A stretch of 64,000 bases of DNA, from NCBI GenBank assembly GCA_037043015.1, contig CM073325.1, positions 21,245,001 through 21,309,000 of the forward strand, read 5' to 3'. Of the stretch, positions 4,135 through 64,000 are shown piece by piece (within the stretch, counting starts at the first letter, position 1; every line of letters starts with the position of its first letter). The notes beneath the pieces are model-generated. The model did no database searches. It was given only the letters and a program-made list of their open reading frames with translations, and was not told where the DNA came from. This DNA comes from Bryum argenteum (lineage: Eukaryota > Streptophyta > Bryopsida > Bryales > Bryaceae). Position numbers and translations under genes: made by a program.

Positions 4135-4139
4135 TTAAC

Positions 4140-13628: not shown

Positions 13629-13855
13629 TGTTGAGAATTAATATTCTCACATACGCTCTCCTTTGTATTCTAGCTAGATGAGTCACTAGTGTAAGATACC
13701 TCCACTACTTTAGACCTATGAGAGAGAAGTACTATTCATCTTCTCTCTCCTTGTACCTCCATATACTCTTTCCCACAATCTAAGACTCTCTCTTTTGTGT
13801 CTATCTTCTTGGTGCTTACTTTGTAATCTCCTTGCTTTCAATTGCATCTTCAACA
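13629..13855 (+). repeat. 5' LTR of the copia element
   Basis: 227 bp, begins TGTTGAGAATTAATATTCTC and ends TTCAACA. The start holds an internal palindrome (GAGAATTAATATTCTC). The only mismatch to the 3' LTR is at 13740. Confidence 0.97.
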
Positions 13856-13867
13856 CGTTATCAGCAC
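13856..13867 (+). other. Putative primer-binding site (CGTTATCAGCAC)
   Basis: Follows the 5' LTR directly. Its complement GTGCTGATAACG resembles the anticodon arm of a tRNA-Ile rather than a tRNA 3' end, which would imply priming by an internal tRNA fragment as in Drosophila copia. It does not match the common initiator-Met site TGGTATCAGAGC. Confidence 0.5.
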
Positions 13868-14740
13868 ACTCTTTCATAGTTCTTAGATCTTAGTACTAAT
13901 TTCTTGATACTTTATCTTAGCTATCTCTACTTCTCTTTGATTTTATTGTAGTTTTTAGAAGGAGTTTTGTTTTTAGAACAAAATCTTAGAACAAGTTTTT
14001 TCTCTTTTAATCTTCCCTTTTGACTTAAAACTTCCCTTCTCACACTCTAAACTTCCTTACATCTCTTTCTTAACTTCTATTGACAAAATTCACAACTTAG
14101 TTTTGTTGTTTTTCAAACTTCGTTTTTGGCCACTTCTTCTCGTTTTGTTCATATTTGGTTTCATTTTATTGATCTTACTTGTTTTAGTTGTCATTTAGAA
14201 GCTTTCTCTTTACAAATCTTCCTCTACAAACCTCAATTTCCTCTCTAAGCTTCTTCTACAAACCCTCATTCTATATTATCACACCTAATATCACTACTCC
14301 AAAACTCCCTGGACTCTTCTCCATCTCTCTCATTTCCATAATATAATAATATTTTCTCCTTTTTCCTTTATTCCTTTACTTCCCACTTGCCGTTTTTTAC
14401 CTTTACTATTTACTGTTTTACTTTTACGTTTACTTTTTACTTTTTACTTTTACTGTATTACTTTTACTTTTTACTTTTACTTTTTTAAATTTTTACTTTA
14501 TTGTATTTTTTTACTTTTACCGTTTTTACTGTTTTCTTTTAGCGATACATATTTTACTTTCTAAACTTCTTTACTTTCTTATTAACTTTTACCGTACATT
14601 TCTTTAAGTTTCTAATTTGTACTTTGTACATTTACCTTCTCACTAACTATCTAATATTTCTCTTTCCTCACTATATATAAAACTCGAACTAACTTGATTA
14701 TATTTTCCTCAATCTCTCACTATATATTTTCAATAATATT
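13868..14740 (+). other. Copia 5' leader, pyrimidine-rich
   Basis: About 870 bp between primer site and gag start. It is T/C-rich, with a degenerate TTTTTACTTTTAC microsatellite at about 14385-14530. No open frame of note. Confidence 0.7.
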
Positions 14741-16639
14741 ATGTCTTCTTCTACTTCTTCCGTGGCTACATCTTCAGCCATGCCGGTGGCTGTTACTAAC
14801 CTTGACCCTCCGATGAGACTTCAACCTCTACAATTCCCACAGTTATCAGCCGATGGCAACAACTATCTATTATGGGCGAGGACTGCTAAAGCTCACATCT
14901 TCGCGGACCAGTTATCGGGTTCTATTGCTTTCGACCCGGGAATGGTTGTAAGTCCTACTCTCCAGCCTTCCATTTCTTGGAAAACTTTACTTCTCCTCCG
15001 TCACCATTTAGTCCCATCTCTCCAATATCAATATCTGGAGATTGAAGATCCTAATGAACTTTGGCAAAAGCTTAAGTCTCGTTTTGATCACCAGAAAACT
15101 ATTTTTCATCCTCGAGCTCTCTCTGACTGGACCCATCTACGAGTGTTGGATTTTCCAACACTTGTTGCTTTTAACAACGAGCTTTATAGGATAATTTCAC
15201 AACTAAGGCTCTGTGGTCAAAACATAACTGAAGAGGAATTGATTGAGAAAACTCTCTCAACTTTTCCACCTGTTCATGCTGTACTGGCCCAACAGTACAG
15301 AAATATGAGATTTACTAACCATTCTGATCTCATGTCTCTTCTACTTCTTGCTGAGAAGCAGAATGAGCTTCTTTTGCGAAATGCAGAAGTTCGCCCCATT
15401 GGTACCTCTGTACCTGAGTCTCATGCTGTCCAGATTCCTAGTGTTAAACCTAAGAACCAAAAGTTTAAGAAATACCGTAACAAACAGCATGGTCAGTCTA
15501 ACCAGGGAAAACCGCAGACTCAACGGAAGAATACTTCTTCCGTTACCACTAGTAGTGGTAAGCGTCCATCAGAGACGCGTTCTTGCCACAAATGTGGCAG
15601 AGTGGGTCATCTGGCTAATATTTGCAGAACACCAGAGTATTTCGTAAAGATGTTCCAAGAGAACAAGCGATATAAATCTCAGAAACGAGAGGCCCACACC
15701 ATGGATGCTTCCATGGATCCATTTCAAACCGACGAAATGGAAACGTACGTTGCAGAGGACATCTCTCCTGGTGAGTCACACGATGCTCTCCTTGATTCTG
15801 CAACTACTCATACAATCCTGCGGGATAAGGCATTTTTTGACATAGATAATCTGTCAACCTGGCAAACCAGAAATTTAATGACTATGGCTGGATCGAATGT
15901 ATTTCGTTTCCAGGAGGGACCAGCAAAGGTGATTTTGCCTGAGGGCACCACCATTACATGCATGCGTGCTATGTACTCTCCCTCTGCACCTCGGAGCCTG
16001 ATCAGCTATCGAGATGTTCGCACCAACGGTTTGCACCTCTCGACTAGTATTCTAGATAAGCGAGAGGCTTTGGTTTTTGTACAGAATAACAAAGTGGTAG
16101 AAACAGCCTTTGCTGCGGCAACTGGCTTGTACCGGATTCCAATCCGACCACCTACTATATGTAGTTTTGCTTTGTCTTCTAAAGATAATAAAGTTGCACT
16201 TTGGCACGGAAGATTGGGTCATCCTGGCTCTACACTTTTACGCAAAATTCTTCCATGCGTTGTAGGACATAGCCTACAACCAGCAAGTGTTAACTCGATG
16301 GCTTTGTGTGAGGCTTGCGTACAAGGCAAATTAATTGCCAAGTCTTCGCTATACAAACTACCTAATGAATTGCCACCAATGCTCTCCAGACTACATGGAG
16401 ATATTTGCGGTCCAATTACTCCTATGAGTGGACCATTTCGATACTTTTTGGTTCTTGTTGATGCATCGGGTCGGCAATCCCATGTTTCTTTATTATCATC
16501 AAGAAATTTGGCGTTCGCCAATTTACTTTCGATGCTTATACGTTTCAAGGCTCATTTTCCTGATTATCCAATTCGAACGCTACGTATGGATAATGCTCAA
16601 GAGTTTCGTTCGAAGGCATTTGAGGATTATTGCGCGTAA
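14741..16639 (+). pseudogene. Copia gag-protease-integrase (first open segment, 632 aa)
   Basis: Gag region at residues 1-230. Zinc knuckle CHKCGRVGHLANIC at 282-295. Aspartic protease core LLDSATTHT at 350-358 (D352). The GAG-pre-integrase HHCC zinc site is seen as LWHGRLGH (H489, H494) and CEAC (C523, C526). The integrase catalytic Asp residues are HGDICGP (D554) and RMDNAQEF (D617). It stops at 16637-16639 inside the integrase catalytic core; the conserved Glu region (NGLAESF) follows in another frame at about 16684. It lies in the usual single gag-pol position, and the break is not at a typical programmed frameshift position for this group. Confidence 0.93.
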
Positions 16640-17187
16640 GAACGGGATTGACTCACATATTGATCCCGTATTAACACGCTCAAAACGGTCTAGCTGAATC
16701 TTTTATTAAAATGATTCAGTGGATTACACGACCACTACTTCTTCACGCTTATTTACCTTCAACAATGTGGGGACATGCTGTTTTACACGCTGCGACACTA
16801 ATCCGTCTTCGACCTTCATCTATGGAAATTGCCTCTTCACAAGAACTTCTTTCCGGACGAGTTCCAGATGTTTCTCACCTGCGCACATTTGGATGCCGTG
16901 TTTGGGTTCCTGTCTCTGAACCCTATCGTCAGAAGACTAATGCTCATCGACAAGAAGGGATTTATATTGGATTCGATTCTCCAAGTATCATTCGCTACAT
17001 CAGTCCAACTACCGGTACGTTGCTACGAGCCCGTTTTGCTAACTGCCGGTTTGAAGAGAATAAATTTCCGTCTTTAACTTACGCAACATCTTCTCAAGAG
17101 TCTAAACCTCTTGTTTTCAAAGCCTCTGAAACATTTATATCAAATCCTGATCCAAGATCTTCTTTGGCTGAAAGTGAAGTTCTTTAA
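16640..17187 (+). pseudogene. Copia integrase C-terminal part (shifted frame)
   Basis: Continues the integrase after the stop at 16637, entering a different frame near 16680. The third catalytic residue region (LAESFIK) and the copia C-terminal signature LRTFGCRVWVP...GIYIGFDSPS are readable up to about 17080. The frame ends at 17187. Between 17188 and 17565 lies the integrase-RT linker with several stops. Confidence 0.85.
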
Positions 17188-17565
17188 AATTATATATTTG
17201 CAAAAGATTGCTAATCAAACACCTGACGGTTTCAACAACGCATCGAGGATTACTAAGAATTCACTCAATGAAGCCCAGAACCTTCATTCTCGAGTTTCTA
17301 TAGTGGATTCTCCAAAGAACTATATACGCCAATCGACAATGAAGCGTCTCGTGGTGCAGATAAGAACCACGTAAAAAGAAGGATAAGCTCCGATCAACTT
17401 CCTTCTACTCCACCCGTAGCATCTCCTGAGTAAAATCGAACTTTTTTTCTTCAAACTTCACAAATTGGAGAAATATCTTCATCTGTCTGTACTGAATTAT
17501 CAATTTTGTATTGTGAATTTAGTGAGATATTGAATAGGCCGATTTGAATTCGATGATCATTTCTT

Positions 17566-18420
17566 GTGTATGATGATTTGAGAGCATCTCTTGTGAGAAA
17601 GATGATCCCGAACCAACATCTATTGACGAAGCGTCGCGTTCTTCGATTGGCCGAAATGGAGTCGCTATCTATTGAGGAGGAGTATACATCTTTGAGAAAA
17701 CGTCAAGTTTTTGGTCCTATTGTGAATAATCTTACAAACAAACCTCTTGGCTACAAACTTGTATTTGTGCGCAAACGTGATGACAAAGGTACGATCACTC
17801 GTTATAAAGTCCGTTTGGTTGCTCAAGGTTTTTCTCAGAAGTTTGGAATTCATTATGATTCAACATATTCACCTGTTATGGATTCTATTACTTTCCGATA
17901 TTTAATCGGTATGGCTGTGCATTTCACTTTGGAAATGCGTCTCATGGATGTTGTCACTGCCTATCTCTACGGATCACTCGAGACTAACCTTTACATGAAG
18001 GTTCCTCCCGGACTTGATCGCACGGGTTCTTCAGCACCTATTGCTGGTAAACACCGTGGAGTTAAATTGCAACGTGCTTTATATGGCCTTAAACAATCGG
18101 GCCGTATCTGGTACCAACGTTTAAGAGATTTTCTCATCAGTCATCATTTTAAGAATGACCAGTTACTCCCATGTTTATTTATCAAACGAGATAAACAAGA
18201 GTTTGTTATCATAGCAGTATATGTTGATGATCTAAATCTTGTTGGAACACCATCTGCATGCAATGCACCTACTCAGCTTTTAACTCGGGAATTTGAAATG
18301 AAATTACTTGGTCAAACCACTTTCTGTATTGGTTTACAAGTACTTCATTTGAAAGATGGTAGCGTTTTTCTTTCTCAATCGACATATCAATCGAATCTTA
18401 AAACGTTTCAACATGATTGA
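17566..18420 (+). pseudogene. Copia reverse transcriptase segment
   Basis: RT core of RVT_2 type: KLVFVRKRDDKGTITRYKVR, LVAQGFSQKFGIHYDSTYSP, the D of RLMDVVTAYLYG, RALYGLKQSGRIWY and the catalytic YVDD box in VYVDDLNLVG. The frame ends at 18420, and RT continues about 60 nt upstream in another frame, so one frameshift lies between 18356 and 18420. Confidence 0.92.
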
Positions 18421-19233
18421 TGCCCATCCTTTATCTACGCCGATGGTTGGCCGTAGTACCAAAGGTGATGACCCTTATCGTCCTTGCGAGGAGGAGGAGG
18501 ATATATTGGGCGAACAATATCCATACCTCGCAGCGGTTGGAGCTTTATTATATTTGGCTACATCAACAAGGCCAGATATTTCTTTTGCAGTGAGTGTCCT
18601 AGCACGACATAGTGCCCGTCCTACTTTACGACATTGGAATGGCGTAAAGCATTTATTCCGATATTTGAAGGGAACTGAGCATTTGGGTCTACATTATACA
18701 CGATCAGCTAATTCAACATTAGTTGGATATGCTGATGCTGGTTATAGATCCGATCCAGCAACCTCCAAATCTCAAACTGGGTATGTTTTCTTGAGACACG
18801 GTGCTGCTATCTCTTGGAAATCTGTAAAACAAACAATAACTGCGACATCATCGATCATTCAGAAGTTATTGCTTTACACGAGGCTTCGAGAGAATGCATA
18901 TGGCTAAGATCCGTTGATAAGTTTATTTTAACAAATTTTGGATTACCATATGACAACGCTGCTACAGTTTTGTATGAGGATAATAGTGCTTGTGTTTCAC
19001 AAATGCAAGCTGGTTTTATCAAGGGCGATCGAACTAAACATATTGATCCGAAGTATTTCAGCTTCACTCATGATTTGATAACAACTGGAGTACTTGAAAT
19101 CAAGAAGATTATATCAGCAGACAATCTTGCAGATTTGTTCACGAAGGCACTTCCGGTATCTGTTCATCGTCGACTTGTTCATGGTATTGGCATGCGTCAG
19201 TTAAATGTAATAGAACAAGAAGTTACCCTATAA
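18421..19233 (+). pseudogene. Copia RT C-terminus and RNase H
   Basis: Two overlapping frames carry the end of RT (AVGALLYLATSTRPDISFAV) and RNase H: GYADAGYRSDPATSKSQTGY with its Asp residues, then after a frame change near 18850 LYEDNSACVSQMQ and KHIDPKYFSFTHDLI. It ends with FTKALP, the usual copia C-terminal signature, and a TAA at 19231-19233. Confidence 0.9.
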
Positions 19234-19695
19234 CTTTTGATACTCTTCTCTGGATTTTTCCCAATGGGTTTTACCATGAGAAAAGTTGATGAAGTTAGCT
19301 GTACTCTTTTTCCTTCATTTGTGTTTTTTCCCTTGATCATCATCAAGGTTTTCGCAAATAAGGTTTTAATGAGGCAGCAAATAAAAGGTGGGTCGTGGTG
19401 AGAACCACGATTTCTGATTCCATGCATGGAGTCTGTTAGCCATCTTGGGGTGCTTTGCATCTTGTTACGGTTTAGGTAGGTGATTGGGCCGACTGGTTAT
19501 TCCTGCCTCACTAGCATGACAAGCCGCGAGTTTCCCCGACCAGTCGACAAGGCCATCGCGAATCGAACCTCGGACCGGTCGGTTAACCACCGACGTTTTA
19601 TCCAGTCGACCAAGTCCACGACTTGGCGACTATCATCGGCATTTAGCCGTATTTGTATCAGTTCACTGCGTTAGCTTATATTATAATACCTCGTC

Positions 19696-19708
19696 GAGCG
19701 AGGAGGAG
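19696..19708 (+). other. Polypurine tract
   Basis: GAGCGAGGAGGAG lies immediately before the 3' LTR, where plus-strand priming occurs. The only non-purine is the C at 19699. Confidence 0.85.
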
Positions 19709-19935
19709 TGTTGAGAATTAATATTCTCACATACGCTCTCCTTTGTATTCTAGCTAGATGAGTCACTAGTGTAAGATACCTCCACTACTTTAGACCTATG
19801 AGAGAGAAGTACTATTCATTTTCTCTCTCCTTGTACCTCCATATACTCTTTCCCACAATCTAAGACTCTCTCTTTTGTGTCTATCTTCTTGGTGCTTACT
19901 TTGTAATCTCCTTGCTTTCAATTGCATCTTCAACA
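19709..19935 (+). repeat. 3' LTR of the copia element
   Basis: 227 bp, identical to the 5' LTR except T at 19820. It is followed by the target duplicate CTACC and then TTAA. Confidence 0.97.
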
Positions 19936-20039
19936 CTACCTTAACCTTTCCAGTTTTGGAGAATCCAATTCCAGTTTTCAGACTTTTACACTATCTACAG
20001 AGGGTAAATGATAACGGGAACATGATGTGGTAAAAATCA

Positions 20040-22590: not shown

Positions 22591-22596
22591 GCATCT

Positions 22597-22970
22597 AGAA
22601 TGAGATTGGTTTTGTTACTCAATGCCATTTAGCTGCACGGAATGAACAAATTAATAGTAAATGTAAGCATACCTTCATGATTCAAGAGAGCATAACCTAA
22701 CTTGGCGATATCATAAAAATAAAATAGGGTATTGATAGGGTATTGACAGACTTGGAATTATGTAGAATGAGATTGATTTTGTTACTGAATGCCATTTAGT
22801 TGCAGCGAATGAACAAATTAACAGTAATTGTAAGCATACATTCATGATTCAAGAGAGCATAACCTAAATTGGCGATATCATAAAATAAGATAGGGTATTG
22901 ATAGGGTATTGACAGACTTGGAGTTATGTAGAATGAGATTGATTTCGTTACTCGTTGCCATTTAGGCATT
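22597..22970 (+). repeat. ~166-bp tandem duplication with the GATAGGGTATTGACA motif
   Basis: The phrase 'gaatgagattg(g/a)tttt' begins at 22599, 22766 and 22931 with ~166-bp spacing. Each full unit carries two tandem motif copies ('gggtattgatagggtattga'). Confidence 0.85.
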
Positions 22971-24656: not shown

Positions 24657-25205
24657 GTTTGTAGTTCGCGCTAATGTCGTTTTCAAAATGAATGAATAGA
24701 AATTTAAATAAAATACAATCGATTATCCACCCAAAAGGAAATAAAATTCCACAAACCTATTATGGTAATAAATATGGGTACGCCAATCAATATTACAAAA
24801 GCATAATGATTAACAGAATCACTTTGAAGTTTACTTATCTGCTTGGCTAATTTTCGAAATGTGTATGAAATTCTATAAGGTCCCAAGATTTTAATACGAA
24901 GATTTTTATGGAGTTATTAAGTGGTAGGAGCCTCATTCACCAAAGTTCTCGAGTGTTGACATAAATCATAACATGGAGATGCGTAAGTATTATGGTTTGT
25001 CTTATGATTCCATCATGTTCATAAGAACCTTCTTAGCTAGTCCAAGCGTTAGGGGATTAGATAAGGTATTGTGAAGTATCTTTGAATTCTAGTTCCAGTG
25101 GTGTTCGTACGGATACTAGTATTTGTCCTTGCACCTGTCGTGTGGTGCAAATATAAGATAAGATGTAGGATAGAGGATTAGATAATGTGAATCCCCTCTG
25201 ATAAC

Positions 25206-25352
25206 ATGTAGGCTAGAAGACTAGATAGGGTATTGTAAAAGATATGTGAATCCTAGTTGAAGCTTACTTAAACAACTAATGGTATCCGTTATAACAATAC
25301 TACGGATAGGGTATTGACATGACCAATCACTACCCTGTCTAAGAACTAATCT
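25206..25352 (+). repeat. Left arm of a 147-bp inverted repeat around the transposase 3' exons
   Basis: Pairs with 26381-26527 in inverted orientation at high identity, including 'acaatactacggatagggta'. It lies directly after the transposase stop codon. Confidence 0.9.
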
Positions 25353-25354
25353 AT

Positions 25355-28300
25355 TCACTCTCTAGTTCCAAATGATCGATTTCTTCGTGTCATCCTCTCA
25401 AACCAATCTTGGTTTCTTAATATACTATTTCCTAAACCGTTATCCACGATGTTGAATGGAGCACGAGGATGTAGAGAGTCATTTACACTATCTACATTCA
25501 AAGCTCTGATCTTCCCACACAAAATTCTAAATTCCGCAAGACCATGTTGAGCTAAAAGAAGCCCACCGTCTACCATAGCATTTTCCATTTCTCGAACACT
25601 TTTTCGGAACTCTTTCATAATATTCGACAATTTCTTCTCGTCACTTTCATCATCAATAATCTCATCCTCTACCAATTCCTCAGGCCATGTTGCATTTGGG
25701 TCAATCCAGTTGGAAATATCAACATCAACATCTTCCACAAAACCACCATCTTCCTCCACATCTCCAAATGGATCTTCTACATCTGGGTTATTACACGCTT
25801 CAAACATAGGGATCACTCCACCCCTTTTTGTTCCGTACCACGTTCCACAAAACTCAACAATGGTATCAGTAGATAGCCCGAACATCTTCAAAATAAAAAC
25901 TTGATGTTTGCAGAAATTACCACAAATGGACCACTCACAATTACAACACGCGTATTCTATACACGGAGCTGATACTTCGTACCACACGTCTTCATTTTTC
26001 GTACTTTGGACTAACCAAGGTTTGCCATCTCCATCTGGATGAAGGATGTCCGCTTCTTCAATTTCTTGTGTAGCTTCAACACTTTTGAGGACAATTTCCT
26101 CAATCTTAGTGTTTTTGATAAAACCCAAAGACTTTAAGTCAAGCCTAGATATAAGTAGTGTCTCTCAACACTTTCATGTAATTTGACTATTAACCAATCC
26201 AATCGCCTTCCTTGAGTACCACGTCGATCCATTTTCATCCATCTCTTTAATGCACCATGGTAAGACTCAATTGTACCCGTCGTATCAGCTCCACTATGAC
26301 GACGTCGACGTAAACCTTTCAACCACATGCCTGCATAAAAAGAGATAAATATGGTTAAACCAACAAACATAAAACTTACTAGATTAATTCTTAGATAGGG
26401 TAGTGATTGGTCCTGTCAATACCCTATCCGTAGTATTGTTATAACGAATGCTATTACTCGTTTAATTAAGCTTCAACTAGGATTCACATATCTTTTACAA
26501 TACCCTATCTAGTCTTCTATCCTACATCTTAACTTTATTATACGCACCACATGACTAATTTTTTGAATTTACACTTCTTGTACTTCAACTCACTCTCAAC
26601 TCAAACACCTTCAAATCAAAATAGTAATACGTGACATATTATTTATAATTTGATTAGAAATTTAATTTAACCAAAACGGATTATGTTATATTGAAATAAT
26701 ACTTCATTTTAAAGACATACCAAAACGGCTGTAATATGACCATATGTAGTCTTCAAAGTTGACAACATCTTCACCAACTTCATCAAAGAGATCGTTAACA
26801 GCTTCGCTCGCCCTTCCAATAAAATCCTCCTCGGTCTCTCCAAAATTTATGGACATGTACATTATTTTTCTCAGTCCATAATACGCGAGGTGTCGGGCAT
26901 CTTTGTTTGCCCTTATTTTTTCAATAGCCCTCAAATTCCAATTTTTTAAAACATGCCATAAGCAAAGGTAGATAACGACATCGTCATCTTTCCAAACAGT
27001 CCTGCAATTTAAACAAGATGATGTTATAAACAAAGTACCATAACTAATTATGTATTGGAGAATACACATGAACAAACTAAATAGAAATAGTATACTAGCG
27101 TACACCAACGAACATAAAAATAGACATGGATAGGGTATTGACAGGGTGAAACAATATCTTATCTACAATTTTTTACATACGAATAACAATAGAAGGTATA
27201 CCTTATTGCATTTTCAGTAGCCGTGTTGTCATCAATGACAAAACATGTTGGATTGAACGTAGGGCAATGAAGGCGTATAGTATGTTTGAAGGCGGCCATG
27301 AATGTTGTTATACAATCCTCCGTCTCGCGGTAAGTGATAATCCACGCGCTTGGAAAACCACTCCGATGGTCATCGAATACAAGAATGGTGTATAAAAAAA
27401 ACTTGACCCTAGATGTACCAAACATGGAATCCATTGATAAAGCATTATTATTGCCAAAACGGATAATTGCATCTCGTTGTTGTGGAGATTGTATTCCAAG
27501 AATAAATGGTTTTTGTTGATCTTCCGGAAGGTTTGGAATCTCACCCGCCCATTGTACTAAGAACACGCTTTCACGATTAGCTTCAATCCAAGATGAAACA
27601 CTAGCCGTTTCCGAAGTAGCTCTCTTCCATTTGTCCATAGAATGACGCTTCTCTATATTTCGAATATTCTCCATTTTCAAGTAGTCATCCTTCCGCATGG
27701 GTAGACCAAGCTTCTTCCTTTCTTGCCACACCTTCAAATGCTCATCAAAAATTTGCATTGTTGTGAATCCTGCATCAAGTCGATTCCATATGAAAGTCTT
27801 TGTTTCTAGAGAAATCCGTGGTGCTAATTGCAAGGCTCGTGGGTCAGAAGCTTTATCATTCAAACCATGAGCAATAGACCCATCCAATCTTGTATGAGCC
27901 ATATGGTAAAAAGAAATTGTGGCTACATCTGATTGGATATACTCTTTTTTGATGGAGAAATTTGCCAAGCATCCACGTTTGTGATTGTGTCGCATGTCTT
28001 TGTTGTCACGATGATCTTTAGGCCCATACGAGCAATGGTAGCTACATCCAAGTTAGAGATTGAGTTAGACAAATAAGAAATGTGAATTGCCTTTTATGGA
28101 TAAGGTATTGACAAAGGCAAGTGAATAATGAATAAATATTGTGGATATGGTATTGACAAGTAATGTTTCTGAGTGCATACAAATACCCTATCACAAATTT
28201 AAGTTGGAAACAATATGACATTGGAGTCCATCATAGAAAGCCAAATGTACATACATCACATCGCATATAGTTTGAGTATGAATTTGGAAAGTGCAATACT

Positions 28301-31086: not shown

Positions 31087-31090
31087 TTAA

Positions 31091-32063
31091 CCCCTAAACG
31101 TCCTTGGGGTATTTTTAGCCAAAAACTCATTTTCAAAAAAAGTGATATAGATGAAAATAAAGATAAGCTATTCAGATCTCAACCGTACAAACTTGTAATA
31201 GACTTGTAGTAGATCATGTGGATCAAAACTTGACTCATGGGACCTCATAGATTGCAAGATCATAACATATTAGTGCGCAAAACAAGCTACAAAATACCAT
31301 CATTTCCACTTTGAAGTGAAAATACTACCAACATGAAATTTGCAATCAAAAAATCAGCAACTAGAAAGTTGTTCATTTTCATCTCAAAGACACTCTTGTA
31401 CCAAAAACATTCATCAAAAAAAAAATCTTGGCTCAAATAGTAGCCTTGTAGTCGTGAAAACTGCCAAAAAATTTACAAAGAAAAAATAGTCCAAAACTAG
31501 ACCCCTCGCACTCAAATCCATGCCTTTTCTTCAATATATCCTCAATTGGGTCAAGGTTTCTACCATTAAAAATAGACTATAATTGGAATCCATCCCAAAA
31601 AATAAAGTCAAAATCTAACGGTGGATGAAGGAGATCTAGCTCTTCAAAAATCATCCATTTCTACACTTTTTTCATCGTAGAAACATCATAGCAAAGCCAA
31701 TACCAAAGTTATCTAGATCAAAAAACTTCCAACTACAAAGTTGTTGGGATGCATCAAAATATCAAACATATGAAAAAAAATTCATGAAGAACTATTTTAG
31801 ATTTCACATAATTGGCTTGCAATGGTAAAACATGCCAAATGTTTGAAAACCCAAAAACAAAAGCTGCCTTCACTAAAATCCATGCCATTTATTCATACTT
31901 CATTTTATAAGTATGAAATTTTCACCACATAAACTAGACTTGATTTGTGACCTAACCCAAGTGATTTCGTCAAAAACGGAGTTTGGATGAAGAAGTTATG
32001 GCTCTTCAAAGTTTCTGCCCTTCATCCAAAATGTCGTTTTTTGACACTAGGGACGTTTAGGGG
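31091..32063 (-). repeat. TTAA-flanked 973-bp inverted-repeat element
   Basis: The left end CCCCTAAACGTCC follows TTAA 31087-31090. The right end GGGACGTTTAGGGG precedes TTAA 32064-32067. The interior aligns in inverted orientation with 42249-43224 (976 bp), for example 'cgtacaaacttgtaatagac' against 43115-43135. No coding frame. It splits a copy of the 20040-20300 repeat family, which gives independent support for the borders. Confidence 0.85.
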
Positions 32064-32067
32064 TTAA

Positions 32068-33174: not shown

Positions 33175-33297
33175 AAAAATAACTAGTACACATAGGCGGC
33201 GTTGCCATGCCTTTGTAAATGTTCCAACCATGCCCATGATCCTTATTACCGTTAAAAAAAAAAAAAAAAAGAAAAAAGAAAAAAAAAGAAAAACAAG

Positions 33298-33329
<32 letters not shown>

Positions 33330-33417
33330 AAAAAAAAAAGAAAAAAAAAGAAAAAAAAGAAAAAAAAAGAAAAAAAGGAAAAAAACAAAGAAAAAAAAGA
33401 AAAAAAAGAAAAAAAAG

Positions 33418-33449
<32 letters not shown>

Positions 33450-33990
33450 AAAAAACTAGAATTTTATGCTTGTAGGTGCACATTTCTATTTTTGGTAAAG
33501 TTTCTAGGGTCTCGGACAACCTGATACTTGCACAATTAGTTTTCTCTAGTTTTTATGTTGATCTGAAATTAGGTCATTTTTTGTAATATCCGGTAATTTT
33601 GAAATCATAAATAGTTTAAAATTCAATATCTCAAAATCCGCATGCCCCAACCGTGATTTGATTGTTTCTCGCACCTCGTACAAAAATACCGGCTTCCAAT
33701 GAATACCTCAAGCGGCATGATTCGACGAACATTTCCCACAATAATAACGTCACAAACAAAACAAACAAATTGTGTGCCTTATATGATAGATATTTTCTAT
33801 GCAAAGAGGTTTCACAAAGTTTTTCTTTTATCTCCTAAATTAAAACTAGTATGCCCCTGAAATGTTGGCACGGCCACTCATATACTTTGACCATGTCCCT
33901 CTTGTTTTTAAGCTGATCTAAAATTAGGTCATTTTCTATGATTTTTGGTGATTTTGGCGGCCATAATTACTTTGAAATTAAATAATTTCA
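33175..33990 (+). repeat. Dispersed repeat with an expanded A/G microsatellite
   Basis: The flanks 'ggcggcgttgccatgcc' (33196) and 'agaattttatgcttgtaggt' (33458) recur in reverse at 54190-54300. The sister copy there has only a nine-base homopolymer at the same place, whereas here 33256-33455 is A runs of 5-9 separated by single G. A related 'aattaggtcatttt' block appears at about 33570 and 33925 and in reverse near 54095. Confidence 0.75.
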
Positions 33991-35620: not shown

Positions 35621-38600
35621 ATGGGCGACGATGGGATGATTTATGGGAGCGATTATGGAGACACGGAATCGGAAGGGGATTATGTTGGAGACGATGATGA
35701 GTGCTTAGGCAACGACAATTACGTTGGCGAGGATGAGGATTGTGGAGGTTATGAGGATTACGTCGGCGACGATGAAGAGGTCCTGGCTCATCAGGAAGCT
35801 CTAGATATCAGTCATAAGGTGCTGCTTCGGCCTTGAAATTTTGTTTTCTGCATTGTTTTGCGACCAGTTATTTAGTTTGTGATAGTTCTAGTCCTGTCGC
35901 GTATCAGTTCTTGACATTGAATGCATTCGACGTGGAGTGGAGGATGTCGTATCCTTTTGTTTTAGTAGAGCTTACATTAAATTGTTGCAGAAGTGAACTC
36001 GGTTGTTTTAGTTCATAGACAAGTTCGGGATCTGATTTCATTTAGGTTTTTACTCAACTCTGGGCACCTTGCCCAGTGATAGATTCATTTTGTGAGCGCT
36101 AATTGCGAAATTGTTCGAAAACGAGGAGCATTCAAATGTGAGGGACTGCGTACGGTTTGAGTACTAACTGTCAGATTTACGATTTAGGTTCTGTAATGGA
36201 TCCTTTCCTGATTCCATTTGCCGCCTTCGTATTGCAGGTTATAACAAAAGAGTCCCTTTTGGCCGCTCAGGTTCGTATTTGCTCTGCACACAGTATTCTC
36301 GATTCGTATGCTTAGGAGACGTTTAGTCTTTTGGGTCAATCTCTTTGTTGATGTATTATTTGGCCATTTTTTGTCCTTTGACTGATACTTTTGGAGTCTG
36401 TGACATTGATAGCACTGGCTCTTTGGTCGGGGCTCGCACTTTTAGATTGTCGAAAAGTTATCTTTGTGGCGTGATTCTAAGTCGATATTGTGTGCCTTAA
36501 ATACTGTGAAATCCAGAGTGAGGACTTAAGAAAAGTTGTGGAGTTCCTGGCAATTCGACAACGTCAAGCACGCACTCTGCTTATCCATTATCGCTGGAAT
36601 GTGGAAAATCTCTTTTGTGCCCTTGCTGAAAAGGGCACTGACCCGATATTCCTGGAGGCTGGTTTACCGCCACCTGATGCGAAGTCTGATGTACGTGTAC
36701 AAGGGGAAACCAGCCAGTATGTTGGATGTGGAACATGTCTCGAAGATGTGTCTACGAGTGCAGCTACACGAATGGATTGCGGGCATGCCTTCTGCAACGA
36801 TTGTAAGCATTTTTGACTCTATCAGATTTTTGATATGAAAACATGACATTCGTCCGATAAGATGAGACGACTGTACTGATGTGCAGAGTGATCATTCAAT
36901 GCATCGAGACGGGAGTGGATCCTCATGCCCGTTCTAGTGCGGAACATGTTGATTTCAAGTCCATTCCACAATGCCTAGAATAGAACTAAGTATAGTCATG
37001 ATCAATAATACCATAACTTAAGCAGTTTGAGATTTGATTCAACTGACCTGTCAGTCGGACTTTCCCGACTTCTGGGCTCTAAATTGAGAGAAAGTGTTGA
37101 AAACATCCCGTTTTTTTGTCCTTCAGGCTGGACGCGTTATTTTATTATAAAAATCAAGGATGGGCAGAGTCGACGTGTGACATGTATGGAGCACCAGTGT
37201 TTTGCAATTTGCGATGAAGATAAAGTTCGAGAACTCGTAGGATTGAAAGACCCGGAGTCCGTTGAACGCTACGAGCGCTTCCTATTAGAGTCTTACATAG
37301 AAGACAATGCCAAGGTGAAGTGGTGTCCAAGTACTCCCCATTGTGGTAATGCCATTCGGCTGGAGGGGGAGCCATACTGCGAAATCGAATGTATATGCGG
37401 GCAGCAGTTCTGCTTCAACTGTATGGCTGAACCGCACTCTCCATGCTCCTGTCACATGTGGGAGCTGTGGGACAAGAAATGCAAGGATGAATCCGAAACA
37501 GTGAACTGGCTCACCGTCCATACGAAACCTTGCCCGAAATGCCACAAGTCAGTCGAGAAGAACGGCGGGTGTAATCTTGTCAGCTGTATCTGCGGTCAGG
37601 CGTTCTGGTGAGTCTCTTTCATTAGTCGATTCTTTGTCGTCCATTTATGGTGCGTATATTTCATCTATAAGATCAGATTAAACTCGTCTTCTGAGATTCT
37701 TTTGTAATGTACAATTACAGTTGGCTATGTGGAGCAGCAACTGGGCGTGAACACAACTGGAATAGTATTGAGGGGCATAGCTGTGGCCGTTTCAAGGACG
37801 AGAAGGAAAAAGAGGCTGCACGAGCTCAACGAGACTTGAAACGATACATTCACTACCACTCACGCTGGAAAGGGCACATGGATTCCTTAAAGTTGGAACA
37901 GAAACAACAAAACGATGTCAAAGACAAGATAACCAAACTTGAAGAGATCCACTGCCAAGTGAAGGATTACAGCTGGCTTACTATCGGTTTGCAGAGGCTA
38001 TTTCGTGCTCGACGGGCTCTGTCCTACTCATTTGCTTTCGCCTACTTCATGTTCGGAAATGATTTGTTCAAAGATGACATATCTGAAGAACAAAATGCCA
38101 TCAACCAGAATCTGTTTGAGGATCAGCAGCAGCAGTTGGAGGAAACTGTGGAGCGCTTGTCTAATCTTGTGAAACAGGTAGAGGCTCCTATGGAGTTAAG
38201 AACTGAGCTGAAGACTGAGCACCTGCAGGACATCCGCCTTCAAGTTATAAACCTGACCACCTTGACCGATGGTCTCTGCAGACGCATGTATGTTCATGTT
38301 TCAAACTTCCAACCTCACACTTGTAGAGTTCGTTCTTCATTGTATGAAGTACTGTTCTGTGAAGTACTGTCTGCTGTTTTAGTTGTTATAGATGTTTTAG
38401 TTGTAAAACCTAAACTGCACATTGCTTGTAGGTTTTAGGGTACAGATATCGATATTCTACATATTGCAGTTCTAGAACCTGCTGTGGTTCGGCTTTCTGT
38501 TTTTTCGAAGTGAGGATGCAGGCTTAGCGAGTCCTGTTGCACATGTTGATACTCTGTACCTAATATTGTCATGTAAATCATGTCACAGGTACGAAGTGAT

Positions 38601-42244: not shown

Positions 42245-42248
42245 TTAA

Positions 42249-43224
42249 CCCTTAAACGCCCACGATGTCGGAAAACGACATTTTGGATGTACATCAGAAA
42301 CTTTGAAGAGCCATATCTTCTTCATCCAAGGTCTATTTTGGATGAAATCACTTTGATTAGGTTCCAAATCAAGTCTAGTTTCTGTTGAAAAATTTTCAAG
42401 CCTATACAATAAAGTATGAATTAATGGAATGCACTTTAGTGAAGACAACTCTTGTTTTTGGATTTCCAAGCATGGGGCATGTATTACCATTGCAAGCCAA
42501 TTATGTGAAATTAAAAATACTTTTTCATGATTTTTTTTTTTTTTCATGGTCATGATCTTAAGGTGATTCTTAACAACTTTGTAGTGAGAAGCTTTTTGAT
42601 CCAAATGATTTTGATATTGGATTTGCAATGATGTTTTGTCGACAGAAAAAGTGAGCAAATGGATGATATTTGAGGAGCTATATCTCCCTCATCCACCGTT
42701 GGATTTCAACTTAATTTCTTGGGATGGCCTCCAATTAGAGTCTAGTCTAAGTGGTAGAAACCTTAACAAGATCGAAAATGTTATGAAGATATGGCATGAA
42801 ATTGAATGCAAAGGGTCTAGTTTTGGACTATTTTCCTTTATAAAGTGTTCGGTAGTTTTTACCATTGCATGGCTTTTATTTGAGCCACGAAACTTTTTTG
42901 ATGAATTTTTGTTGGGTAAAGGACTTATTAAGATGAAGGTGAACATCTTTCTAGTTGCTGATTTTTTCATTGCAATAGGTATATTGGTAGCATTTCCACC
43001 TCAAAGTGAAAATGATGAGATTTTGCAGTTTGTTTTTGATATTAATATGTTATGATCTCCCGATCTATAAGGCCTCATGACTCAAATTTTGGTCCACATG
43101 ATCTTCGATAAGTTTATTACAAGTTTGTACGGTTGAGATCTTAATAGCTTCTTTTGATTTTCAGCTATGACGATTTCTATGGAAATGTGCTTTTATACTA
43201 AAAATAGGCTCGGGCGTATAGGGG
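42249..43224 (+). repeat. TTAA-flanked 976-bp inverted-repeat element
   Basis: The left end CCCTTAAACGCCC follows TTAA 42245-42248. The right end GGGCGTATAGGGG precedes TTAA 43225-43228. It is inverted relative to 31091-32063 and related to the decayed copy at 1080-2455. Short open frames inside (for example 42636-43055) have no recognisable domain and are not conserved as frames in the sister copy. Confidence 0.82.
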
Positions 43225-43867
43225 TTAATTAATCTCAAACTATTAATTTGTTAACCTTAGTCTCATATAACCTAGCACCCTACCTCGTGGTCAGTTTAGG
43301 AATGTTGACTGTTATGGAAATTATTTGTTGAAAGTGCAAAATTATACAGCCTTATTTATTTATTTTTGAAAATTTTATATGATTATTTGATATTGCAAAA
43401 ATGACTATTTTGTGGTGAAGCATAACTTAGTTCATGCCAAGTTGGATATGGTGGCCTTTGCACTTGTCCCCACCATTCTCAAAATTTAGAACCATACCCC
43501 ACCAAAGGTCGAAACTGCAAAATAAATATATACCCCACCAAATGCAGAAAATGCAAAACAAATATATTTTTTTCCCAGTTCAAATATCAAGAATATTTCA
43601 ATTCCTTTTGCTAAAACATATCATGGTTAAAAAGAATCCATTTCGTCATTGGATTGTTGAAACTGACCATGATGTACAATACCCTGTAAAATTAGGAAAA
43701 CAATTCTTGCAATAGTCAATATTTACTCAAACTTTACAAAGAAAATAGTGTGTGTAACTAGACTTCTAACACTATTTATGTAAGTCAATTTTTCAAAAAC
43801 ATGTTGGATATAACTAATGTTGGATTTTGTAATAATCTTTTTATTACAAAAAGTAGATTAGAATTAA

Positions 43868-57400: not shown

Positions 57401-58510
57401 TAGGAGTGACTAGGTTGAGTAGTAGCGGCAACGGCGGAGCGTAGAGTAGTGACGACGTTGTGCTAGGCAACTCGAGATCTTGAGCTGGTGGAAAATTGGC
57501 ACCGCAGCCTTGGAGGGAGCACGACGCTTCGTTAGGCGGGCGAGTTCTTCAACGAAGAGAAGGCCACACTATAACGGCCAGAAGGTGACGGAATTGGAGT
57601 CTCGGTAGTGCTCATCAACTCGATCGACGATTCATAATGTGACACTAAAAAAGATATACAACGCGCTAATATAGAGGGAGACCTCTAACCTCCTCATTTT
57701 CAATCTTTTTTTTTTGTTTTATTCAATCCAATTAGTAGTTATGATGTTAAGAAGTTATAATAACCTCTACTTTAATAATGGCAATATAATTGACAAAAAC
57801 TATTGTTATTAGTGAATTCTAGGTTGCATGGTATTTTTGGTAGTTTGTATGTGTGCATGCTTTGTGGTGGTGTGTGCTTTTAGTGCTTGGTTGCTTAATT
57901 AGTGTGGAATTTTGTCTGGTGAAGGTCATAGTGGAAGATCAAAGTGCAGAAGCGTTGGCCAACTTTCCCAATGAAAATTCTAATTTGTTTAAATGGTTGA
58001 TGTTGCATATGTAGGCTATTTAATAATGTATGGTAGTTGAATACTAAATTTCTAGTGAGGTTTAGTATAAATTAGATGCATGTTGAGCAACCCTAGTAGC
58101 GATTTTGAGAGGTTTGAATGCGTCGAGTTAAATTGAAGTCAATTTTACTCTTTTGCTAGGTTGAATGTGTATTAAAAGTTCCATGAACATAGAAAGGGTA
58201 GACCAATTGCTTATTTTGTGCCAACTTAGACACATCTTGCCAACTGTAGGAATCTCCAAGTTTACCATGTCCACACGGGAGATTCACAAGTATATACCTA
58301 GAGATTCATTGCTTGGAAGACCAAGATTGTTTGTACACCGTCTTTCAGCCCAACTTGAAACCCTAGATTTGTGCAAGCGAAATTTGGGCTCACATCCAAG
58401 TTCATGCTTCTGTTCATGTCATTATTCCAAAGCTCGTTCCAAACCCCATCTTTGTTTTTGTCCAACCTAAGATAGAAAGGCAAGAAGGCAAGAAGGCTTT
58501 TTTACTTTTG
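54470..58510. other. Intergenic, AT-rich, no gene recognised
   Basis: Short frames only (for example 55168-55431 plus, 87 aa), without recognisable domains. At 56193-56203 there is one TTAA-family-like end ('cattaggggttaa') without a visible partner. 56610-56728 holds short Cys/Pro-rich tandem units. 57410-57600 is GC-richer. Confidence 0.45.
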
Positions 58511-58511
58511 T

Positions 58512-58690
58512 AGCTTTTAGGTAGGTAGGTTGGGGCTGTACAATACTTGTAGGAGGTTGCAAGCTCATCATTGATTGGATCATTCATGGTGCCCAAGTTC
58601 AAAAAGTGCACTATTCATGATGCCCAAGTGCAAAAGATGTTGTGATCCAATACTGGGCTGCCCAAATTCATATAGCTAGGCGTTTACGGG
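58512..58690 (-). repeat. Truncated copy of the ~360-bp TTAA element
   Basis: Matches the part of 3742-4134 from 'aggtaggtaggttgggg' to the end (GTTTACGGG before TTAA 58691-58694). The other half is missing. Opposite orientation to the full copy 120 bp further on. Confidence 0.75.
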
Positions 58691-58811
58691 TTAAGCAGAA
58701 ATGATCTAGTCATAGAATTATAAGAAAAACTATTATGTGCAATACTTTCCAACTTCATTGTGTCAAATTTGATTACATGAGAGCTTCCCAAAATCAAAAG
58801 AACGCTTTTAA

Positions 58812-59173
58812 CCCTTAAACGCCCATGGGGTCTGAAACGGGCAGCCCAAAATTGGATCACAGCATCTTGTGGACTTGGGCATCATGAATAGTGCACTTTT
58901 TGAACTTGGGCATCATGAATAGGCCAATCAATGATGAGCTTGCAACCTCCTACAAGGTTATGTACCACCCCAACCTACCTACCACAATCCTTTCAAAGCA
59001 CAAAATCATTCATACAAATTGTGTTTTGAATTGTGAAATTTCACTTTTTGAATGCATCAGAAGAAGGTGACCAGTTTGACATCAAAATATGAGTGAAATG
59101 TTGAGTACAGTGAGAGCTACAGGGAAGATTCTGTTGGAATCATGCCCCTCGGGCTTGCTTGGGCGTTTAAGGA
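58812..59173 (+). repeat. TTAA-flanked ~360-bp inverted-repeat element (copy C)
   Basis: CCCTTAAACGCCC after TTAA 58808-58811, GGGCGTTTAAGGA before TTAA 59174-59177. 362 bp, the same length as copy A (361), two internal ~32-bp units. Confidence 0.82.
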
Positions 59174-59177
59174 TTAA

Positions 59178-60454
59178 GGCACCTTGCAATTGTAGAGATC
59201 AATTGGCCATGAGCAACTGATTCCCACTTCATTCTTATATTGTTGTTTTTCTATTTTGAGTTCCTTGAATCTTTTGTTCAAAATTTGATGTGATGATGAA
59301 TTGAGACGGCAATTAGGGCTGCTCCACACGAGGGGCCAAATTATTGATGAAGCCAATCCACAGTAAAATTCTCTCTTGTGACTAATTCATGACTTAAAAT
59401 TAGCCCGGGCAAGGGTTTTATAAAGGGAGTCAAGGCCAATTTTTTGGAATTATATTGTAATGGATGGGGGAGAAGTTATGACAAGACTGGACGTCCAAAA
59501 GTTGTGAGATACAAGAATGTAAGGCCAATTCATGGCCTAAAGGCCATTGCTTAATTTTATTACAGAAGTGTTATTTCACTAAAATATCTATTGTGGAAAA
59601 TCAAACACATGAAATATATTAATTATACAGATTGACCTCATGGTCTTGTGAATTGGCCCCATGACCTTGTTTTTCTTTTTACAAATTGACTCCAAGGGCT
59701 TTACACATGGGAATTGGGCCCTAGTGGCCTAGTTATTATTTTTTTTATGTGTTCTCTAAGCAATCCATTGAGCCATGTGAGTGATTTAGCTTGGAGATTT
59801 CTTGGCTATAACTCCCTATGTGAAATGTCTCTTAGGCCATCTTTAGGGCATTCCCAAGGAACTGGCTAAAAACACGCAATTAAGCAATTATGCACTTGGG
59901 GAAGTGCATTTTTTGGCGTGCAATTAAAGCAATATATTCATCCATTTAAAAAATGTTCTAGATCAAAATTTCCAAAGGACACTATATTCTTGTTATATTA
60001 TCATTTCTATGATACGGAAAATTAACAGCTTTGAATTTTCATTGTTGTTGGAAAACTATACGTTATCAATTAAATTCAATGAGCATATGTAATCACTTTG
60101 ATTCCAATACTTCTTTTTCTATATAACCACTATGATCATTATGTATCGTTCGTTCATACTTGCATTCAATGTACGTACAATGTACATTTTGAACTTGCAT
60201 TCAACCATGAATTATCACGGTCTATGGTGACCACATGATTTGTCCTTACACATCAACATGATTCAAAGTGTACAATCTCTCAATATATAATAAAATTGAC
60301 GAGAAACATAGATATACATTAAAATTAGAAATTTATATAATAATCCATATATTGTCACTAAAAACCAACATTTCAATCACTCTACTATATTCTATCATAC
60401 CAAACAAACACACACCTCCTACAGATTGCTATGAAACATGGAGCACATGTCGAT
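59178..60454. other. 3' flank of the ParB-methyltransferase-like gene, no gene seen
   Basis: AT-rich and non-coding. Probably includes the 3' end of the minus-strand gene that stops at 60455. Confidence 0.4.
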
Positions 60455-63400
60455 CTACATCAAAGAAAGGCCAGTCGCATGGCTCAAGGCGTTCTCCACC
60501 ATATCATCCACCACATCATCAGGCACCGATCCTTCTCTTGTGCTAACAGATGTGTGTTGTTCATACGTATAGTTACCATGCACTCCTCTTCTTATGTGTT
60601 TTATTCCATCTGCATCGAAGTAGAAACCATCTCTAAACGAATATGTTGAACCAAAGGTCTCTTGGAAAGAGGCACCGCCAGTTGACCGAGTACTTCCCGA
60701 AGTTGAAAACATTGGCTGGGGTCCTGTAGGGCTATCTATGCCGTTGTGCTCGCCCTGCGTCATGGATCTTAGCTCCATTGGATTCCCTCCAGACAACCTC
60801 TCAGCCAATCTCTGCGAGACGTGAAACTGATCAACAATATGATCTTCTGATTCCATGCCAATAAAATGATCGTTATCTTGGATTTGTGAATCTCTATTGT
60901 TGTCCTGTGCAGTCTCTTTGCCATCTGTCTCCATCCGTACTGTCCTCTCAGCCGCTACAACCTCAGATGGAGGTGTTGATGGAACAACGGCAGGTGTATG
61001 GGATTCCGTCGGCAGTCCTTCCGGTTCTAATACTGAATCATAATCTAATACAGTGAAATCAGTCCCTCCATCTCCGTCTTCTGCTACTGCTTCTTCATCA
61101 TCTTCATGACTGCTACTCGCCACGTCGGACACGTCATCTCCAGAACTAGAGGATGTCGGTGTATGGTCTCGTGGCCTTCTTATATTGAAACCTTGGTGTT
61201 CCAACTCGGCTTCAGACTCGACATGCGTTGTAGCCGCTGGATCACCCTCTTCTGTTGTCCCAATATCGGCTTGGTTTCCCAAAGATGATGTGGCTCTCCC
61301 TTGGAATACAAGTTGGCCTCCCATCTTCTGGGATAACTGATCATGGACGAAGGAATCCCTCTTCCTGCAATCGTCGATGACGATGACGTCGTTCCCCCTA
61401 AACGCCGACGTCAATATTGTTGGAACGGCCGTTCCCATGTTGCATGCCACCAGACCCCAACCACGAGGCAAGTACGCTCCGATCAACCTCGCCAACTCCG
61501 TTGGAGATCTCTCGAGAGGATCAACTTCCACCGGCTTTCTAGAATTTCCACGGCGGTCGTGGAACATAAGAGGAAGTGGTACGTTTGAAGCTACGAAATT
61601 CAACTTGGGCGTTGAATTCTTGGGATGATGCAAATAAATAAGAACATCGCCGGTTGCTTCCACCGATTGAATATAATGGCCAGCCTCTTCGATGTTCTGT
61701 GGATAATCCTTGGGAGTACATCGGAAGGTCCAACACCCGCGTAGATGTGAGCAATCCGCCGGTAGCTTCAACTTCACCAACATATCCGGCGTATAGTATA
61801 CGCCAGGCGGAAGTAGAAACACGACATTCCATCGTTCGATCTTTGACATCCATAAATTCAACTGCTCAATGATCTTCACGTACTGATCATTAGTCCAGGC
61901 ACCGTCGCCGTACCGTCCTCCACCGCGGCGACAATCTATGATCCACAGGTACGGCTGCTTGAGCATGACAATATCTCGACGGAATAGCCCTCTCCTACAT
62001 CGAACGAGAAGAGTGTTTTGTACATCATTATCGCCTGGTAACTTCACGTTCATCTTCCACTCCCAAGTGTGTGCGCTTTGCCAATCCTCGGGGGCTGGTG
62101 GAACGTAGTAGCCGACCCCCCCTTGTGCAACATCCTCATAGTGGTTGCTGATAATTACAGGAATGAGGTCGCGAATATCATCAAGTTCTGACACATTCTT
62201 CACCTCAGGAGCGGCCCACTTAGCCTTCGTAATTGGACTCAGTAATGTGCCAAAATCTTGGAGCTGTTCCATTCCTCCAGGGAAATACTTGGATACAGAT
62301 AAACCAAAGAACTCCTCTATAGTTCTTGGTGAAGCCTCCCCGTTTTCCACCATCAAATGACGAATGATATTCTTGACCGCTTCTCTGCCCATGATCCGCT
62401 CCACTGCACCAGAAAGAGTATGGGACTTTGGATCCTTTACTTCAACTCCATCAAAATAATATTTCTGGGGAGGCCTAATACCATCCGGACATACGGCCTT
62501 TGCTGCACATGACTTCACAATACCCAGATATAGGGAATCCGGACACCTAGTCAATGGTTTAAACCATTGAGGAGTCATCCGCAATCGATTCGGCCGTGTA
62601 TCCACGGCAACATCAAAGTCCTTTTTGCCGGCGAGTTCCTTCCATCTAGTCTCATCACCCTTGCTATGAAATAGGTGCCCATTCTCATAGTCCTTGCACA
62701 CCTGAAGGATGGCCTCGAAGCATTCGTCACTTGGATTCCAAGCTTGATGCGTCAAGTTCACCAACCTGGATGCCAACGTCTTCGTGGTGATCATTTCATC
62801 CTCCTTAGGTATCTTCTGGACAGCGCTGGCTGCAGCCACCAAAGCCCGCCCCCTACGAATATCGTCCGCGCGGATCAAACTGTTTGGCTTGCCATAGTGT
62901 TTCCATATCTCTCGGAGCTTCTTCAGATCCTGAGACATCGTAGAAAGGTGTTTCCCCGTATGAGCCGCCATATTAAGCCGTACTGACTTCATTATGTACA
63001 TGATCGGATCATTGAAGACCACAAAAGTGGACCTCCGCTTCATGAAAGTGGACTCGTACTCAGATCGGTTGAGCGTCGCCGCCATGTAACGCTCCTTGGC
63101 GAGCTTACAAGCAGCTACAACGTGTTGACCATCGACAGGCTCCCAGATAATGTGCTCTTGTAGCCACTTGATCTTGGAAGCCTCGCTGCCGTATTCAGAG
63201 GTAGAAGCATACAAGTTATACACTCGTGTGAATTCTTGTACTGTGCCTTCCACCGGAAACGATACCCGCTCCATATGAACTTGACCATCGTTGGATGTCG
63301 TATGGACAATGTATTTCACTGGACGAAGTACCAACTTGGATACTTCGTTCCTCTTCAGATGATCGTGTAGCATGCTGTAGACTTCCTCTACCCTTTTCTC

Positions 63401-64000
63401 AGATAACAAACGATGGTTTGTATCAGGATTTTCCGGCGCAAGAATGTGATCAATATGGGCATAGAACTCAATTTCTCCCCACAATGATCCTCTTGCAATC
63501 TCCGCTCTTGTGGGTACAGGCGCATTTACAATTCGGGGCTGCGCAACACTAGGGACGATAGTTACATTTCTATTTGGTTCCTCCGTCTCCTCATCCGAAT
63601 AGTATAGAGACTCATCTACTACTGGTGATATATGCACTGAAGGTTCTGCTGTTGATGTCGAAGGTCCTCCTTGACTTCGAGATGATTCTCGGCCCGTACG
63701 AGAGACCCGACAAACTCCGGCTGTTGATCCCCTTCTGGCCGATACTTCAACGGTTGCACTAGGTACAACTATTGATCGTGGCGTGCTACCTTCAACAACA
63801 GTCTCGCCACGACCTGTCACCCGGCCCCTTCCACCGCGCAATAATGGATTTCTCCCAGACAACCTCTCAACATCAGTATCATGGGATGCTGGCTGCTCTT
63901 GGGAAGCAGACGCTACATTCCGCGATGCACCCCTAGCCCGCTTGGCAGGGCGACCACTTCCTTCAATATTGGCCGTCTGTGCCACCGGCTGCTCACGAGA
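60455..64000 (-). CDS. Large ParB/DGQH-like plus methyltransferase-like protein (5' partial)
   Basis: Open from the window edge to TAG 60455-60457, over 1180 residues without an intron. The first in-frame start-like codon visible is GTG (63985), so the true start is outside. Residues are numbered from that GTG. The N-terminus is basic with RGG-like parts (GRPAKRARGA, RGGRGRVTGRG). At about 170-325 the layout resembles ParB/sulfiredoxin-type domains: HIDHILAPENPDTNHRLL, LVLRPVKYIV, then EPVDGQHVVAACKLAKERY (DGQH kept, usual Arg lost). At about 665-885 it resembles a permuted DNA aminomethyltransferase: WIIDCRRGGGRYGDGAWT where motif IV (DPPY) is expected, VVFLLPPGVYYTP, then SPTELARLIGAYLPRGWGLV and ACNMGTAV at the SAM-motif-I position, then DVIVIDDC. 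Both catalytic motifs look degenerate. Residues 905-1060 are acidic/Ser-rich. Enzyme activity is doubtful, and a transposon-encoded or domesticated DNA-binding role is possible. Confidence 0.65.
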   Translation of the reverse strand, partial: SREQPVAQTANIEGSGRPAKRARGASRNVASASQEQPASHDTDVERLSGRNPLLRGGRGRVTGRGETVVEGSTPRSIVVPSATVEVSARRGSTAGVCRVSRTGRESSRSQGGPSTSTAEPSVHISPVVDESLYYSDEETEEPNRNVTIVPSVAQPRIVNAPVPTRAEIARGSLWGEIEFYAHIDHILAPENPDTNHRLLSEKRVEEVYSMLHDHLKRNEVSKLVLRPVKYIVHTTSNDGQVHMERVSFPVEGTVQEFTRVYNLYASTSEYGSEASKIKWLQEHIIWEPVDGQHVVAACKLAKERYMAATLNRSEYESTFMKRRSTFVVFNDPIMYIMKSVRLNMAAHTGKHLSTMSQDLKKLREIWKHYGKPNSLIRADDIRRGRALVAAASAVQKIPKEDEMITTKTLASRLVNLTHQAWNPSDECFEAILQVCKDYENGHLFHSKGDETRWKELAGKKDFDVAVDTRPNRLRMTPQWFKPLTRCPDSLYLGIVKSCAAKAVCPDGIRPPQKYYFDGVEVKDPKSHTLSGAVERIMGREAVKNIIRHLMVENGEASPRTIEEFFGLSVSKYFPGGMEQLQDFGTLLSPITKAKWAAPEVKNVSELDDIRDLIPVIISNHYEDVAQGGVGYYVPPAPEDWQSAHTWEWKMNVKLPGDNDVQNTLLVRCRRGLFRRDIVMLKQPYLWIIDCRRGGGRYGDGAWTNDQYVKIIEQLNLWMSKIERWNVVFLLPPGVYYTPDMLVKLKLPADCSHLRGCWTFRCTPKDYPQNIEEAGHYIQSVEATGDVLIYLHHPKNSTPKLNFVASNVPLPLMFHDRRGNSRKPVEVDPLERSPTELARLIGAYLPRGWGLVACNMGTAVPTILTSAFRGNDVIVIDDCRKRDSFVHDQLSQKMGGQLVFQGRATSSLGNQADIGTTEEGDPAATTHVESEAELEHQGFNIRRPRDHTPTSSSSGDDVSDVASSSHEDDEEAVAEDGDGGTDFTVLDYDSVLEPEGLPTESHTPAVVPSTPPSEVVAAERTVRMETDGKETAQDNNRDSQIQDNDHFIGMESEDHIVDQFHVSQRLAERLSGGNPMELRSMTQGEHNGIDSPTGPQPMFSTSGSTRSTGGASFQETFGSTYSFRDGFYFDADGIKHIRRGVHGNYTYEQHTSVSTREGSVPDDVVDDMVENALSHATGLSLM

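Follow-up and report, generated by a model that had tools for sequence, protein, structure and literature searches.

Proteins that join a ParB-like domain to a DNA amino-methyltransferase are an emerging class of accessory genes in algal transposons, and their function, in the part of the describing paper drawn on here, is given as a proposal only (PMC12477816). The 21.5 kb Ectocarpus transposon Sola1-1_Ec32 encodes one such protein, of 1104 residues with ParB-like and N4C/N6A methyltransferase domains, transcribed in the direction opposite to the transposase; the same part of the paper refers to similar proteins in green and red algal transposons, citing Iyer et al. (2011) and Petroll et al. 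(2025). Here we describe a 64,000-nucleotide stretch of the Bryum argenteum genome (GenBank assembly GCA_037043015.1, contig CM073325.1, positions 21,245,001 to 21,309,000; hereafter the window), at one end of which a long reading frame encodes a protein predicted to combine a ParB-CTPase-like fold with a methyltransferase fold from which the catalytic motifs have been replaced. Our preferred interpretation, to which we give about an even chance of being right, is that this is a DNA-binding pseudo-enzyme, most likely one that serves as accessory protein to a large DNA transposon of plants, or that derives from such a protein. The original prediction, made from this sequence alone, knew of no described plant system of the kind; this holds for land plants in the open-licence papers searched, although accessory proteins with ParB plus amino-methyltransferase have been published for algal transposons. 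The word 'plant' is absent from the main text of a 2025 survey that includes eukaryotes (PMC12704722), and PMC4469406, considered as a ParB literature match, proved to be a false match inside a table.

The features of the frame are listed below, with residues counted from the GTG at 63985, which is the tool's begin point and not the real start.

60455..64000, minus strand: stop-free frame of 1181 codons, running off the window edge, with the first ~190-240 residues beyond 64000
63521..63985, minus strand: N-terminal tail, residues 1-155, Ser/Arg/Gly-rich
62954..63475, minus strand: ParB-CTPase-like fold, residues 171-344 (predicted structure)
63119..63130, minus strand: site of the P motif of ParB proteins (GxxR), reading GQHV (alignment of 12 proteins)
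62129..62950, minus strand: conserved helical middle region, residues 346-619 (alignment)
61325..62050, minus strand: fold of a permuted amino-methyltransferase with substitutions at its catalytic motifs, residues 646-887 (predicted structure)
61925..61936, minus strand: motif IV position (DPPY-like in enzymes), reading DCRR
61427..61447, minus strand: motif I position (DPFxGxG-like in enzymes), reading ACNMGTA
61370..61381, minus strand: motif II position, reading VIDD
60458..61330, minus strand: C-terminal tail, residues 886-1176, acidic and Ser-rich

Structure prediction argues strongly that the second half of the protein adopts a permuted (beta-class) DNA amino-methyltransferase fold, in which the catalytic strand lies ahead of the strand that binds S-adenosylmethionine (SAM), and among the Foldseek matches to this model the bdelloid N4CMT structure 8s9m appears at ranks 5, 10, 21 and 25. 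The motifs quoted in the original prediction were recovered in the order that it gave (IV-like, I-like, II-like): VDGQHVVAACKLA occupies residues 284-296, DCRR follows 400 residues later at 684-687, and ACNMGTA (847-853) and VIDD (869-872) come after it. Among the 10 proteins that cover this region DCRR is identical throughout, with DPPY in none; at the motif I position T852 and A853 are the sole invariant positions of seven (10/10), and the GxG of the glycine-rich SAM loop (FxGxG) occurs in 0/10. The first aspartate of motif II is present in all 10 and the second in nine. The Pfam N6_N4_Mtase profile matched neither the window protein nor 12 family members, although it matched the Lacachita phage protein at 1.7e-29. 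The loss of canonical motifs that had been predicted is thus common to every protein covering the region, which argues strongly, at the level of sequence, that the window protein is a pseudo-enzyme; it probably binds DNA but does not methylate it.

The ParB-like half can be assigned with fair confidence, on its modelled three-dimensional structure, to the ParB-CTPase fold. In the part of the literature used here, the P motif consensus is GxxR, which binds phosphates, and changing its arginine to alanine abolishes nucleotide binding (PMC12704722). The corresponding site is GQH[V/I] in all 12 proteins aligned, such that the phosphate-binding arginine is gone, a point absent from the original prediction; the Pfam ParB profile matched neither the window protein nor its 11 relatives. 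The helical region that follows is possibly, in part, a ParB helix-turn-helix DNA-binding domain. Both pockets, that of ParB and that for SAM, are therefore without their defining residues, yet the replacements are fixed in the members seen, which argues for changed function rather than decay.

Several results weigh against this interpretation of the folds, and the claim that both are present stands on structure prediction, since the sequence and profile methods used detect neither. No relevant match was obtained in Pfam (window protein and family members), NCBIfam (nine members), PADLOC (12 members) or PHROG, and searches of PDB sequences likewise yielded nothing relevant; the lowest E value in these family and PDB-sequence searches, 0.0091 for one of nine members, was to an unrelated phosphonate-metabolism model. 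Comparison by hhalign of the core and of the methyltransferase part with four clades from phages, of which three are ParB-methyltransferase fusions and the fourth a methyltransferase alone (79, 79, 39 and 80 proteins, each plus one reference), gave E values of 0.21-0.71 in 8/8 comparisons, whereas hhalign linked the phage clades to one another at 4E-14 to 4E-151. The relation is therefore one at fold level, and we claim neither descent from a phage fusion nor a donor. The models were built from alignments of 9 and 10 sequences, with predicted local distance difference test (pLDDT) scores of 60 and 69, and the methyltransferase fold emerged from a separate 286-residue model, being not visible in one of 751 residues. 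In favour of the assignments, the top structure matches of each of the two separate models fall into a single coherent family, at the place to which the motifs of the original prediction had pointed.

The protein belongs to a family of at least 11 related clusters, eight from a first search and three more from a second. These searches covered ~5.8 billion predicted proteins and each time scored only the ~8000 candidates with the most common words, so more relatives may exist. The first returned eight clusters at E <= 1e-3, with best local alignment identities of 36-78% to the window protein; repeating it with the alignment as query returned the identical eight, and the core of the most distant relative gave five matches, three of them new. 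The 11 relatives are 431-1488 residues long and come from contigs of at most 2.3-6.3 kb. Nine relatives (P0001-P0009) cover the core; among these and the window protein, the ParB-like, middle and methyltransferase parts each show a mean pairwise identity of 54% (minima 38, 35 and 33%, respectively), with gap fractions that round to 0.00. The tails evolve fast: mean identity is 31% in the N-terminal tail, where 0/155 positions are invariant, and 28% over residues 886-1090, with the far end of the C-terminal tail (1091-1176) better kept at 42%. A conserved core set against freely varying tails fits a folded protein under selection, and so agrees with the earlier suggestion that selection has kept the frame open, albeit with the caveat that a protein search favours long intact frames and biases conservation among the members found. 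In the core tree the window protein pairs with P0001, and P0008 with P0009.

The single uninterrupted frame of about 1180 codons that had been reported is borne out, for in 200 mononucleotide shuffles of 60455-64000 the longest stop-free run averaged 133 codons and never exceeded 264; the remaining five frames contain 39-77 stops apiece. The true start of the gene lies beyond 64000, because the relatives extend ~190-240 residues upstream of the point at which the window protein begins. Searching with P0001-P0008 (8/11 relatives) by tblastn revealed no second copy in the window, with nothing outside the open reading frame (ORF) below an E value of 0.48. That the gene was horizontally acquired or transposon-borne, as originally proposed, is plausible, although the analysis turned up neither a transposase nor a terminal repeat for the ORF, nor a donor; on its 3' side, the one side within the window, neither a transposase nor an element end was recognised. 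The idea that the inverted repeats at 58.5-59.2 kb mark an end of the gene's own element was rejected, as they form a fold-back element that recurs at 3.1-4.1 kb (58492-59178 and 3091-4142, with matching pieces 78-96% alike).

Elsewhere the window carries transposable elements, repeats and ubiquitin ligase exons, contents that fit a plant genome. A Copia long terminal repeat (LTR) retrotransposon at 13629-19936 is probably young, its 228-bp ends (13629-13856 and 19709-19936) being 99.6% identical, and has recognisable gag, integrase and reverse transcriptase domains in a frame that is in pieces. A broken MULE-type transposase gene lies at 25202-28052, with its MULE domain within 27162-28052 and an accompanying 152-bp inverted repeat (25202-25353 and 26380-26531). 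Two inverted repeats of ~1 kb (31087-32067 and 42245-43228) are 79% identical and have a weaker relative (68%) at ~1974-2426. Exons of an Ariadne-type RING-between-RING ubiquitin ligase occupy 37009-38438 (IBR, 9.2e-17; Ariadne domain, 1.2e-64). There are also a tandem array at 22596-22965 (167-bp unit, 2.2 copies, 92% matches) and a 202-bp run rich in A (plus strand, 33254-33455).

By analogy with the algal ParB plus methyltransferase accessory proteins, it is plausible that the window protein is a transposon accessory protein of the same kind. The ParB-like and helical parts would then bind the DNA of their own element and oligomerise there, the methyltransferase fold would serve as a second grip on DNA, reading sequence or methylation and not writing it, and the bound protein might occupy or mark the element, either countering host silencing or aiding the transposase. 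Only as a doubtful extension do we suggest that transposon-encoded dead ParB-methyltransferases have spread in plants, with nucleoside triphosphate (NTP) and SAM pockets remodelled (GQH[IV], DCRR), as anti-silencing factors that coat the DNA of their own elements and read it or its methylation. If true, a bacterial write-type module would have been turned into a reader. A plant branch free of catalysis but with fixed replacements would allow DNA binding to be told apart from methyl writing, would put to the test whether these proteins help transposons through binding and not methylation, and would extend ParB-fold fusions to plants.

A domesticated host gene family would also account for a conserved core, and replacement motifs that persist although core domains fall to 33-38% identity, the single copy in 64 kb and the want of a visible element end all accord with it. 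The module would have come long ago from a transposon, virus or bacterium and would now have a role in its host, such as that of a scaffold bound to DNA in chromatin; METTL14, the non-catalytic partner of METTL3, illustrates such a role for a dead methyltransferase fold. We nevertheless consider domestication unlikely, as the search, which favours long intact frames, biases the conservation among the members found, the gene is one long frame amid repeats, and its nearest precedent is transposon-borne. It is improbable that the protein is an enzyme after all, one in which DCRR and a changed SAM loop support another reaction or cofactor: invariance of all four residues in 10/10 proteins is as expected of an active site, but motif IV has lost its PP(Y/F/W) and the SAM-holding glycine loop is missing, and no active amino-methyltransferase that carries DCRR is known to us, although no search aimed at one was made. 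Giant-virus insertions are known in plants, and a long single frame with prokaryotic-type modules would suit a large DNA virus that integrated and left this remnant; such an origin is quite improbable, given that 15 matches to two peptide patterns in IMG/VR viral contigs gave 0 confirmed relatives, that none was confirmed in 50,697 phage records (tblastn), and that ten other window ORFs, when scanned, included no recognised viral gene. Pattern matches in prokaryote genome contigs (472) also gave 0 confirmed relatives, and plasmids none. Scarcely any weight attaches to the view that the fold matches are shallow-alignment artefacts of an unrelated plant-specific family, which the negative profile searches and thin alignments would favour and the agreement of two separate models with the foretold site opposes.

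The DNA-binding pseudo-enzyme that we prefer most resembles, in architecture and size, the Sola1-1_Ec32 protein, in that ParB-like and amino-methyltransferase domains are predicted in one eukaryotic protein of ~1100-1400 residues in surroundings that contain transposons. It differs in that the algal protein lies inside a transposon and is a predicted writer of N4-methylcytosine or N6-methyladenine, whereas the window protein has its catalytic motifs replaced, no element is seen around it and its host is a plant. With phage fusions such as that of Staphylococcus phage Lacachita (UVD33307.1; Pfam ParB_N and N6_N4_Mtase) it shares a ParB part N-terminal to a permuted amino-methyltransferase; the three phage references, at 404-499 residues, are too short to accommodate the tails and the long middle region, DPPY and DLFGGSG are intact in the Lacachita protein, and hhalign detected no profile similarity between the phage fusions and the window protein. 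The bdelloid rotifer N4CMT is likewise a permuted bacterial-type amino-methyltransferase in a eukaryote, but it is an active N4C writer with a chromodomain, and the part of its description used here mentions no ParB part (PMC8885841). Canonical ParB, KorB and Noc have the ParB-CTPase fold predicted here, possibly followed, as in those proteins, by a helical DNA-binding domain; unlike them, the family lacks the GxxR arginine in 12/12 members, and no ParA-binding or dimerisation domain was recognised. In METTL14 and MTA9-type partners a methyltransferase fold has been retained for binding after catalysis was lost, and the window protein, with its predicted methyltransferase fold lacking catalytic motifs, is like these inactive partners, albeit from another lineage and with other motifs.
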